This document shows positions 25,329 through 59,891 of a stretch of DNA of 64,000 bases, in pieces. The stretch comes from Vibrio palustris (GTDB taxonomy: Bacteria; Pseudomonadota; Gammaproteobacteria; Enterobacterales; Vibrionaceae): positions 310,001-374,000 of the forward strand of contig NZ_AP024888.1 of assembly GCF_024346995.1 (NCBI RefSeq), read 5' to 3'. The notes beneath the pieces are model-generated. The model made no database searches, was not told the DNA's origin, and saw only the letters and a list, made by a program, of their open reading frames with translations. The position numbers were made by a program, and so were the translations under genes. Every line of letters begins with the position of its first letter. The first letter of the stretch is position 1.

Positions 25329-27245
25329 ATGAAAAAACTAGGTCTTAAACCAATATTGATGATTTCGATATTATCGCTGGTCGGGATATCCGTCACTATT
25401 TCAAACTATCTGTCTTATAGTCAGCAAAAAAAAGAGCTTAAAGCTCAAATTATCAAATCAAACCAGCAACTGGTTGTGGATCAAGCATTATTGGTTGAAC
25501 AGTTCATTAGTGAAAAGGTGTCTGGCCTTAAAGGACTTGGAGAAAGATACCAGTCTTCTGATTTACCGGCTAAAACTCCACAAGACTTTGTCGATTTAAG
25601 TTCTATTTTTGCGATAACCTTAAATACTGGTAGCTCATTTATCGGCTTAGAAGATAGCGGTTATGCGTATTGGAACCTAGAAAATTCGAGCTGGCCTAAT
25701 CATAAGTTTGAAGGTGATATTCGCAAGCAAGGCTACTATCAAGATGGGCGTAATGCCCAAACGCCCGCGATGACAGAGCCTTATCCTGATGAAGGTGATG
25801 CCAATGTCTACTGGATTAGTATGGTGCAGCGTATTAAGCAAGGAATGATCGGTGCAGATATGAAACTCGGGTTCTTAAATAAATTGGTGCTCGACATCGC
25901 AAAAGAACAAGGCTCGATGGCTTTCATTTTTAATAAAGATACAACATTGCTTGCATCTTCAGATCCTAAGACGGTCAAGCCTGGAATGAAAGGTAATGAG
26001 GTTGCATGGTTAAAGCCACTTTCCGGATCACTCGTTAGCGAAAAGTCCACGACTCAAGAATTTACAAATGGCACGGAAAAAATTCTTTTTTCCCATCAAA
26101 TTAACGTAGCAAATAAACAATGGTACTTTGCGATTGTCGTCAATAAAGCCGATGTTTTTGCAAGTTTAGTCACCGCACGTAATTCTGCGATCATGACCAC
26201 TTTGATATTAGTATTACTTAGTGTGATCATCGCGTTCTTTGTTGTCCAAATTATATATCGTCCGATTCTTTCTTTAAAAGCGATGATAGAAGGATTATCG
26301 AGCGGAGAAGCTGATTTAACTAAGCGCTTAGATGTCACCACCGATGATGATTTAGGACAAATTGCGCAAAGCGTTAACCTGTTTGTTGATAAGCTACAAA
26401 CCATGATGATCGATATTCGTAGTGCGACTTTAACGCTACAAGATAATATCGGTGATATGGAGAAACTGTCGCAAGAAAACTCAGAAATTCTCAATAACCA
26501 TGTGATTGAAACTGAACAAGTCGTTACGGCGATTGATGAAATGAGCGCGACTACCGCGGCAATGGCCAGTGACATTTCTAATGCGGCTAATTTGGCACAG
26601 CGCACTAACGATGAAAGTAACGAATCGAGCAAGCTAGTCGCGAAATCACAAAATAATATTACCTCGCTGATAAGTGGTGTTGATAACTCGTCGCGACGAG
26701 TCAATACGATGAACGATGAGACTAAAAATATTAGTGAAATATTAGGCGTGATTGGGGATATTTCTGAGCAAACTAATTTGTTGGCGTTAAATGCGGCGAT
26801 AGAAGCGGCAAGGGCTGGTGAGCAGGGGCGAGGCTTTGCGGTGGTGGCTGATGAAGTTCGTAAACTAGCGAATCGTACGAAAGAAAGTACCGAACAGATT
26901 AGCGAAGTGCTGAAAAAACTGGTTAATGGTAGCCAAGAAGTGGTGATTGCGATGGAGCAAACCAAAGCTCAGTGCGAACAAACCGCAGAAGAATCGCAGA
27001 GTGTTCATGTTGGTTTAGAGAAAGTGATTCATTCTATCTCTGAAATCAATGATATTAGTACACAAATTGCGACGGCTGCAGAAGAGCAAACGAGCGTAAC
27101 CCAAGATGTCAGTCGCAATATGAATGCGCTCAATGACATTGTCTCTAACTTGGCAAGTAATGGTGATAAGGCCGTATCCGGCATGAAAACCGTCGCTGAG
27201 GTGAACCAACAGCTCACGCAAATTATTCAGAGATTCAAAGTGTAG
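25329..27245 (+). CDS. Methyl-accepting chemotaxis protein with dCache-type sensor
   Basis: 638 aa from the ATG at 25329, which has AGGA 6 nt ahead; an in-frame ATG six codons earlier has none. Helix 1 at about 8-28, a periplasmic Cache domain of about 240 residues (with [28 protein letters not shown]), helix 2 at about 283-305, HAMP (about 305-360) and the signalling domain with [20 protein letters not shown]. dCache receptors often bind amino acids, amines or carboxylates directly. The sigma-28 promoter shows coexpression with late flagellar and chemotaxis genes. Confidence 0.9.
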
Positions 27246-58575: not shown

Positions 58576-58683
58576 CTATTGCCAAAGCGCCAGTAAAAAA
58601 ATAGCGATCGCTATTGCGAACGTAACTTTTAAATACAGTCCCAGTGGTGCACCGCCTTTAGGCGGTTTATTGCAGCATCCCAT
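58576..58683 (-). CDS. 35-residue Cys-Cys membrane mini-protein
   Basis: Reading from ATG 58683 gives MGCCNKPPKGGAPLGLYLKV, then a hydrophobic stretch TFAIAIAIFLLALWQ and a TAG at 58576. One membrane helix (about 16-34) behind an N-terminal head with Cys3-Cys4, Lys and Pro-Pro. The ribosome site (TGAGGATAAATA) is strong, which is the main evidence that it is translated. The decisive point is the promoter: a CueR/MerR-type promoter with TTGACC, 19-bp spacer and dyad lies 36 nt upstream of the start region on the same strand. So a metal- or redox-induced small membrane peptide is inferred; the CC pair may bind a soft metal. Homologues and function unknown to me. Confidence 0.75.
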   Translation of the reverse strand: MGCCNKPPKGGAPLGLYLKVTFAIAIAIFLLALWQ

Positions 58684-58725
58684 TATTTATCCTCATGACG
58701 TTTTATATCTGCTCTCTTTGTGTTT

Positions 58726-58756
58726 AGCTTAAACCTTACCCCAAGTGTAAGGTCAA
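58726..58756 (-). promoter_or_regulatory. MerR-family (CueR-type) promoter/operator
   Basis: On the minus strand: -35 TTGACC (58756-58751), a 19-bp spacer, -10 TAAGCT (58731-58726). Inside the spacer region lies a perfect dyad ACCTTAC-N7-GTAAGGT (58753-58733). A long 19-bp spacer with a dyad between the hexamers is the defining layout of MerR-family activated promoters, and the arms match CueR boxes (ACCTTCC-N7-GGAAGGT) except one position each. Transcription would start near 58719. No MerR-type gene is in the window. Confidence 0.8.
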
Positions 58757-58818: not shown

Positions 58819-59247
58819 ATGACGATACCTTGGTATTCTCTTGGTGGTGGCATTTTATTAGGAATTTCTGCTGTATTATTACTGTTATTTAACGGCAAGG
58901 TTGCTGGCATTAGCGGGATCGTGACTCGCGCCATGTCGATAACGAAAGGGGATGGATTGTGGCGTTATCTCTTTTTGTTTGGTCTCATTGCTGGCGGTTG
59001 GCTTGGGACGCAAAGTGCTTGGGCTGAAATGCCTAAGGCCTTTACCGGCCATTCAGGTTGGTACTACGCCGTCGCTGGTCTGCTGGTGGGAGTGGGAACA
59101 CGGTTAGGTAATGGCTGTACCAGCGGGCATGGTATTTGTGGGATGGGACGTTTCTCATCACGCTCAATCGTCGCGACACTAATCTTTATGTTGATCGCTG
59201 CGGTAACCGTATTTTGCACGGTTCATCTATTAGGAGCGGGCCAATGA
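58819..59247 (+). CDS. YeeE/YedE-family transporter, N-terminal half protein
   Basis: 142 aa from ATG 58819 (AGGAG 10 nt ahead; the open frame extends back into the MerR-type promoter). Four hydrophobic helices. Family hallmark: [20 protein letters not shown] with the conserved Cys, then [11 protein letters not shown]. YeeE/YedE proteins move thiosulfate or related sulfur compounds; in many genomes the gene is split in two, as here. Its stop overlaps the next start (ATGA). Confidence 0.88.
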
Positions 59248-59675
59248 ATAAGATGGCATTTGCACTGGTAGCGTTGATATCAGGTTTATTGTTTGGTGTC
59301 GGTATGGCTATTTCTGGTATGGCAAACCCGCAAATCGTACTCGGTTTTTTAGATGTATTTGGTGACTGGGATCCGCGTTTAATTTTTGTGATGGGCGGGG
59401 CACTTGCGGTTTTCATCCCTGCTTATCGCTGGTTAATCCTGCCCAGAACCACTCCAATCAATAGTGACGAATTTTGTTTATCGACAAAGACGAACATTGA
59501 CCGACAACTTATTAGTGGCGCGGCGATATTCGGCGTTGGCTGGGGCTTAGCGGGTATTTGTCCTGGCCCTGCGATTGCAAGTTTAACGATGGGAAACCCA
59601 GATGTGTGGATATTTGTCATTTCCATGGTGATTGGTTTAACCTTGACGAATCGATTGCTCACCCGTAATCAATAA
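59244..59675 (+). CDS. YeeE/YedE-family transporter, C-terminal half protein
   Basis: 143 aa from ATG 59244, overlapping the previous stop by 4 bp. Helices at about 5-23, 45-65, 88-108, 118-138. The conserved pair is GMANPQIVLGFLDVFGDWDP early and GLAGICPGPAIASL with Cys later. Works with the preceding protein as one transporter with pseudo-twofold symmetry, the Cys residues relaying a sulfur species through the membrane (family knowledge). Confidence 0.88.
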   Translation: MNKMAFALVALISGLLFGVGMAISGMANPQIVLGFLDVFGDWDPRLIFVMGGALAVFIPAYRWLILPRTTPINSDEFCLSTKTNIDRQLISGAAIFGVGWGLAGICPGPAIASLTMGNPDVWIFVISMVIGLTLTNRLLTRNQ

Positions 59676-59702: not shown

Positions 59703-59891
59703 TTGCAGCAATTAACCGAAACAACCATCCATTGCCCATATTGTGGCGAGCCTATCGACGTATTATTGGATCCTGCCGATATTGATCAGCAATACATTGA
59801 AGACTGCCAAGTGTGTTGTAAACCGATTAACTTTTTTGTCTTTGAAGATATGGATGATGAATTATCGGTGACTGTCTCCAGTGATGACTAG
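59703..59891 (+). CDS. CPXCG-motif Cys-rich zinc-ribbon-like protein
   Basis: 62 aa from a TTG start at 59703, needed because no ATG is available and AGGAG lies 6 nt ahead. Metal site: CPYCGEP (about 12-18) paired with CQVCCKP (about 36-42), leaving an acidic C-terminal tail (EDMDDELSV). Matches the small family of CPXCG-containing proteins of unknown function found in many gammaproteobacteria. Lies 27 bp after the YeeE pair on the same strand and may be cotranscribed. Confidence 0.82.
   Translation: MQQLTETTIHCPYCGEPIDVLLDPADIDQQYIEDCQVCCKPINFFVFEDMDDELSVTVSSDD

Follow-up and report, generated by a model that had tools for sequence, protein, structure and literature searches.

The closest described system is the CueR regulon, which includes copA, cueO, and other genes and for which the E. 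coli copA promoter serves as a reference. Like members of this regulon, the locus described here has a promoter with a 19-bp spacer, an ACCTT...AAGGT dyad, and a motif common to the copA promoter of the same genome. The published CueR signal is ACCTTCCC-(5)-TGGAAGGT, and cytochrome and glutathione S-transferase genes were predicted in 2006 as Vibrio members of the regulon (PMC1526738); in the parts of that study considered here, a peptide target of the present kind is unmentioned. An assignment to the peptide open reading frame (ORF) of the CueR sites that this study places ahead of glutathione S-transferase genes (PMC1526738) was not supported, the downstream gene in Vibrio diabolicus (L121) being a lipid A acyltransferase. 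With the soluble Cu(I) chaperones CopZ and Atx1 (HMA fold), the peptide would share two cytosolic cysteines and copper-linked expression, but it is only 35 to 37 aa long and has a vicinal CC rather than CxxC and a membrane helix; an HMA fold with CxxC was not found in the peptide (no Pfam match, single helix). MerF and MerT import Hg(II) and have two or three helices. The peptide resembles them in its vicinal cysteine pair at the membrane face and falls outside that group, with one predicted helix and no Pfam match. In size and topology it is similar to KdpF, CydX, AcrZ, and MgtS, which are small single-helix pump partners, and we know of no conserved cysteine head in these four proteins. It is very likely that bacterial copper defense has an overlooked component in this peptide, and we rate the peptide and its homologues as a new family of small proteins in a regulon already known. 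A metal regulon that is among the best studied would thereby gain an overlooked and widely conserved small-protein family.

Within the 64-kb window (i.e., the whole stretch of Vibrio palustris DNA that was analyzed), the first-pass annotation had described a minus-strand MerR-type promoter containing a perfect dyad, followed by a small frame with a ribosome site. On rereading, the coordinates and description of the promoter were right, and the ribosome-binding site and the 35-codon ORF were confirmed directly (Table 1). The ORF is translated as MGCCNKPPKGGAPLGLYLKVTFAIAIAIFLLALWQ. The pattern TTGACCTT-N11-AAGGTNTAA had a single exact match in the window, which was the peptide promoter; allowing up to 3 mismatches, there were 2 matches versus 0.54 expected from shuffles, the second being a 3-mismatch match at position 25951. 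The peptide promoter was not listed in a generic promoter scan of the window because that scan takes only spacers of 16 to 18 bp.

TABLE 1 Features of the peptide locus, with positions given in the window
Feature	Position	Strand	Basis or remark
-35 element TTGACC	58751..58756	-	Read directly; TTGACC or TTTACC kept in relatives
CueR-type dyad ACCTTAC-ACTTGGG-GTAAGGT, perfect, within the promoter spacer	58733..58753	-	Read directly; pattern searches
-10 element TAAGCT, 19-bp spacer from the -35 element	58726..58731	-	Read directly
Ribosome-binding site GAGG, seven bases ahead of ATG 58683	58691..58694	-	Read directly
35-aa membrane peptide gene; ATG at 58683, stop ends at 58576	58576..58683	-	ORF list and homologues
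Head motif codons CCNKPPKGG (residues 3 to 11)	58651..58677	-	Motif kept in relatives
Predicted helix codons (residues 14 to 34)	58582..58644	-	AlphaFold2, mean pLDDT 81.8
Divergent Sulf_transp half-protein, judged outside the system	58819..59247	+	Pfam PF04143

Judged by its conservation, the 35-aa ORF is a real gene. Homologues occurred in 74 Vibrionaceae genomes of the 150 searched (74 of the 146 that passed the completeness filter), at 78 places and in 5 of 13 genera. Conservation of the frame, a check set beforehand, held at all 78 places, where the ORF was open and without internal stops. The 24 Vibrio/Aliivibrio copies compared had a pS of 0.425, a pN of 0.062, and a dN/dS of 0.10; dN/dS was 0.09 for 12 Photobacterium copies. 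No match to the peptide was found in the other 76 of the 150 family genomes, and it is therefore dispensable. A search of named contigs, seeded with CCN words, yielded homologues from Vibrio, Photobacterium, Aliivibrio, and Salinivibrio (80 of 82 loci kept), as well as one contig each labeled Marinomonas, Psychromonas, and uncultured Shewanella. One homologue (P0008) carries the name of V. cholerae in the database, which puts that species among the host vibrios. Matches were present in 25 of 394 genomes of an order-level sample and, among the 369 genomes of a class-level sample, only in the window's own genome; across these samples, the family is centered on Vibrionaceae. Inspection by eye showed one order-level match (G173) to be spurious and another (G314, locus L106) to be a distant homologue, and the weaker matches G187, G384, and G484 lay outside the homologue assessment. 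Because this distant homologue exists, the CCN word search may underestimate the breadth of the family. In L106, the gene for the peptide MGCCSRPPSGSGDKKELAKGAKYIGIFVIAVFILGYVFG comes after a gene for DUF411 and a frame that resembles a cytochrome by eye.

The consensus of the homologues is M-[G/S]-C-C-N-[K/Q]-x-P-x-G-G, followed by a variable linker, a near-constant lysine at position 19 or 20, and a terminal hydrophobic helix. The head is better conserved than the helix, the sequence of which varies. Within the head, CC is the most constant element, as P0056 has GE in place of GG and the head of L106 reads CCSRPPSG. The pair occupied residues 3 and 4 at all 78 places of the family search (lists compared by eye), and there its invariance was not by construction; among the 97 distinct peptides, it was partly by construction because the homologue scripts retained only frames with CC at residues 3 and 4 and the seeds were CCN words. 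With CC conserved and a single helix predicted by AlphaFold2 (the head being less certain), the earlier description of a Cys-Cys peptide with one membrane helix is supported. Residues 1 to 21 were net positive in 93 of the 97 distinct peptides. By the positive-inside rule, the positively charged end of a membrane protein stays cytosolic, so we infer an N-in topology with the head in the cytosol.

Pfam and NCBIfam scans of the peptide found no model that reached its cutoff, and a literature search found no paper describing the peptide or printing its motif strings. A precomputed PF28099.1 assignment on one homologue (P0020) was not reproduced by the Pfam/NCBIfam scan here. Other records label homologues as hypothetical, as membrane protein, or as "YjcZ family sporulation protein," the last label being attached to Vibrio and Photobacterium homologues (P0008, P0011, and P0031). 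The peptide is short and hydrophobic, as that label implies, but no curated Pfam or NCBIfam model scored above its cutoff. To our knowledge, a sporulation role is implausible in vibrios, and the label is probably a propagated misannotation. The frame had been called unannotated, which is true of the four plasmid copies described below (no feature over any of them in an incomplete gene table) but not of homologues elsewhere that carry these labels. As an annotation signature in place of the wrong sporulation label, one could use M-[G/S]-CCNxxPxGG combined with a single helix and, upstream, a CueR promoter with a 19-bp spacer.

The promoter sequence points to copper. In the 3.74-Mb genome, the slightly looser CueR pattern TTKACCTT-N4-T-N6-AAGGTNTAA matched 32 times with no more than 3 mismatches. 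The only exact match was the peptide promoter, and the only 1-mismatch match was the copA promoter, TTGACCTTAACGTAAGGGTAAGGTTTAT, directly 5' of a copper-translocating ATPase (TIGR01511, 619 bits; cutoff, 397); these were the two best matches genome-wide. A single 2-mismatch match lay within another frame, and 29 matches had 3 mismatches (25 for a reversed-pattern control). A search of the genome for MerR-type proteins gave six. One of them is CueR (TIGR02044, 177.6 bits; cutoff, 147.4), whose gene adjoins ligA, not copA; ZntR and SoxR have genes of their own. The 19-bp dyad promoter, the CueR gene, and the motif shared with the copA promoter make the peptide gene a probable member of the CueR regulon. 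The copper reading of this putative CueR promoter is strongly supported, and Cu(I) is favored over Zn, Cd, or redox signals as the inducer because the site matches the copA promoter, CueR is encoded, and ZntR and SoxR are separate. Control by Zn or Cd is unlikely, since the site has its motif in common with the copA promoter and ZntR is encoded separately; redox control is disfavored by the same shared motif and a separate SoxR gene. The original suggestion of soft-metal or redox induction is narrowed accordingly. CueR also responds to Ag(I) and Au(I), which are likewise favored over Zn, Cd, or redox signals.

Among relatives, the neighborhood changes and the promoter is kept. Using a pattern devised after viewing the window and the homologue frames, we found a CueR-type site with up to 3 mismatches upstream in 100 of 116 distinct homologue loci, which were deduplicated by peptide plus 70 upstream bases only, with close relatives counted several times. 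The numbers of loci with 0, 1, 2, and 3 mismatches were 28, 26, 27, and 19, respectively. Such sites occurred in 28 of 2,320 shuffled regions and in 8 of 440 regions upstream of neighboring genes; two of these eight belong to copper-locus genes, and the only two control sites with 0 mismatches lie upstream of the gene that follows the peptide in L116 and in L117. The site ends 20 to 60 bp ahead of the ATG in 99 of the 100 loci that have it, and when spacers of 15 to 22 bp were counted, the upstream hexamer pairs had a 19-bp spacer in 93 of 113 cases. Conservation of the upstream dyad in most relatives was confirmed, and regulation of the peptide by a CueR-type copper promoter is well supported at the level of sequence.

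Copper genes recur near the peptide in a minority of loci. They were named by clustering or tblastn, with Pfam/NCBIfam run on L159, L109, L157, L106, and L197. A copper gene lay within the examined flanks of 20 of the 80 named loci, compared with 2 of 32 control loci, for which less flanking DNA was available than for the 80 named ones; both positives (L197 and L198) were ATPase loci picked on purpose, and the count for the others was 0 of 30. Among the 116 distinct loci, 22 had a copper gene nearby, 9 with a site of up to 3 mismatches and 13 without; 91 had a CueR-type site and no copper gene in the flanks examined. These 13 were among the 16 loci without a site of up to 3 mismatches, and the other 3 (L068, L131, and L133) had 4-mismatch sites only and no copper gene in view.

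In 14 of the 80 named loci, the gene order was peptide, MerR, and copper ATPase (copA), as judged by clustering and checked by Pfam/NCBIfam for L159. In this class, the dyad reads ACCTATG...CATAGGT, as seen in L158, and the L159 MerR scored below the CueR cutoff; for these two reasons, a related regulator seems to act there. In L158, a MerR-type site lies ahead of the peptide, and the same pattern found none between peptide and merR; L111 has sites at both positions. L129 has a site between the peptide and merR-copA and only a looser TTGACC stretch ahead of the peptide. A looser TTGACC site also lies ahead of the peptide in L136, L142, L143, and L185, and no site was found by the CueR-type pattern in L062, L074, and L115, the last of which (V. 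halioticoli) has small ORFs and then cus genes after the peptide. In Psychromonas (L157), the peptide belongs to an island that also encodes CopD, CopC, and DUF411 and contains a frame for an RND pump matching a CusA query. In the Photobacterium cus loci L109, L116, L117, and L119, a CueR-type site (0 or 1 mismatch) follows the peptide and precedes the cus genes, and no such site was found ahead of the peptide. This position rules out the peptide as the CueR-driven first gene of a cus operon in these loci and makes it a neighbor of a CueR-controlled cus unit. A second small protein is encoded between the peptide and cusC in L109, L116, and L117, behind its own CueR-type site; it is rich in Met and Cys in L116 and L117, and the L109 copy had no Pfam match.

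The peptide is also found on plasmids. With P0008 as the query, four Vibrio plasmids were matched (no plasmid matched the window peptide), and all four carry the peptide ahead of a MerR gene and a heavy-metal ATPase; the whole peptide could be read in three. The 3.4-kb peptide-MerR-copA unit is 93.9 to 97.7% identical in DNA among the named Vibrio loci L158 to L161 and two plasmids (L223 and L225), and this identity suggests transfer of the unit between species. The L225 copy adjoins csy3, cas6f, and tniQ genes, as would be expected of cargo in a CRISPR-associated Tn7-like element. For phage carriage, five stretches matched a word pattern and none was confirmed.

On balance, we think that the peptide is a copper-induced inner-membrane micropeptide that serves as a Cu(I) carrier, tethered to the membrane on its cytosolic side, or as a pump helper (probability, about 0.53). 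Cu(I)-loaded CueR would untwist the over-long 19-bp promoter and turn on the peptide gene together with copA. One helix would anchor the product with its positively charged N terminus in the cytosol, the adjacent cysteines (M-[G/S]-CCN-x-x-P-x-GG) would coordinate Cu(I) at the membrane face, and the peptide would then either deliver it to CopA, the exporter, or keep it in place. Binding by the CC pair and the hand-over to CopA are inferred. A carrier is favored by conservation of the head rather than the helix, by two unrelated exporters as neighbors, and by the genome's lack of a stand-alone HMA chaperone gene; the metal shuttle proposed from the window is plausible. No such chaperone gene was found at an E value of 0.01, and the three HMA matches in the genome all lie within ATPase frames of 907 and 764 aa; a multicopper-oxidase frame is also present. 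In E. coli, CopZ arises from copA through frameshifting, so a missing chaperone gene is not proof of a missing chaperone. Weighing against the proposal are the 76 family genomes with no match, the Photobacterium cus loci in which the CueR-type site comes after the peptide, the second MerR-type site in L111 and L129, the lack of a site by this pattern in L062, L074, and L115, the three loci with 4-mismatch sites and no copper gene in view, and the below-cutoff MerR of the peptide-MerR-copA class. If the peptide is a copper carrier, it would help account for the supply of copper to CopA where a cell has no separate chaperone gene, and it would provide a very small membrane protein for studying Cu(I) hand-over. 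More tentatively, it may define a new class of copper protein, in which a CueR-induced, tethered CCNxxPxGG head replaces the HMA chaperone feeding CopA and peptide-merR-copA units are mobile.

A single-helix peptide of typical size, encoded in the order peptide-MerR-copA, could also be a small regulatory or stabilizing pump subunit, with a helix that binds and tunes the pump and a CC head that senses rather than carries copper. The helix sequence varies, however, and it is the head that is constant; moreover, the peptide also lies beside cus genes and often beside no pump, and we consider such a subunit rather unlikely. That most copies stand alone, as in the 91 loci above, would suit a copper-induced peptide with another target, i.e., one that protects or assembles a respiratory enzyme or acts as a partnerless thiol-based Cu(I) buffer, as would the position of L106 beside DUF411 and the cytochrome-like frame. 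The recurrent neighbors are copper export and resistance genes, however, and no oxidase gene recurs among the larger neighbor clusters listed, which makes this explanation improbable. The strong conservation of the head, a dN/dS of about 0.1, and the copper-specific contexts argue heavily against a leader or hydrophobic toxin-like peptide unrelated to copper, even though the ORF is short and hydrophobic and comes first in MerR-copA operons; in the window, it has no close following gene on the same strand. The chance of such a peptide appears slight.

Modulation of the neighboring sulfur transporter was another early suggestion. The two genes are divergent across a 135-bp gap, and the neighbor has a Sulf_transp domain, but no homologue of it was found by tblastn in any of 177 relative loci (flanks of 1.5 to 5 kb), and a joint function is hardly credible. 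A second half-size protein (DUF6691/Sulf_transp) is encoded at positions 59244 to 59675 (plus strand), overlapping the first frame by a few bases, and the halves look like a two-part YeeE/YedE-type transporter. Directly after them, at positions 59703 to 59891 (plus strand), lies a gene for a 62-aa CPXCG cysteine-rich protein of unknown function (PF14255).
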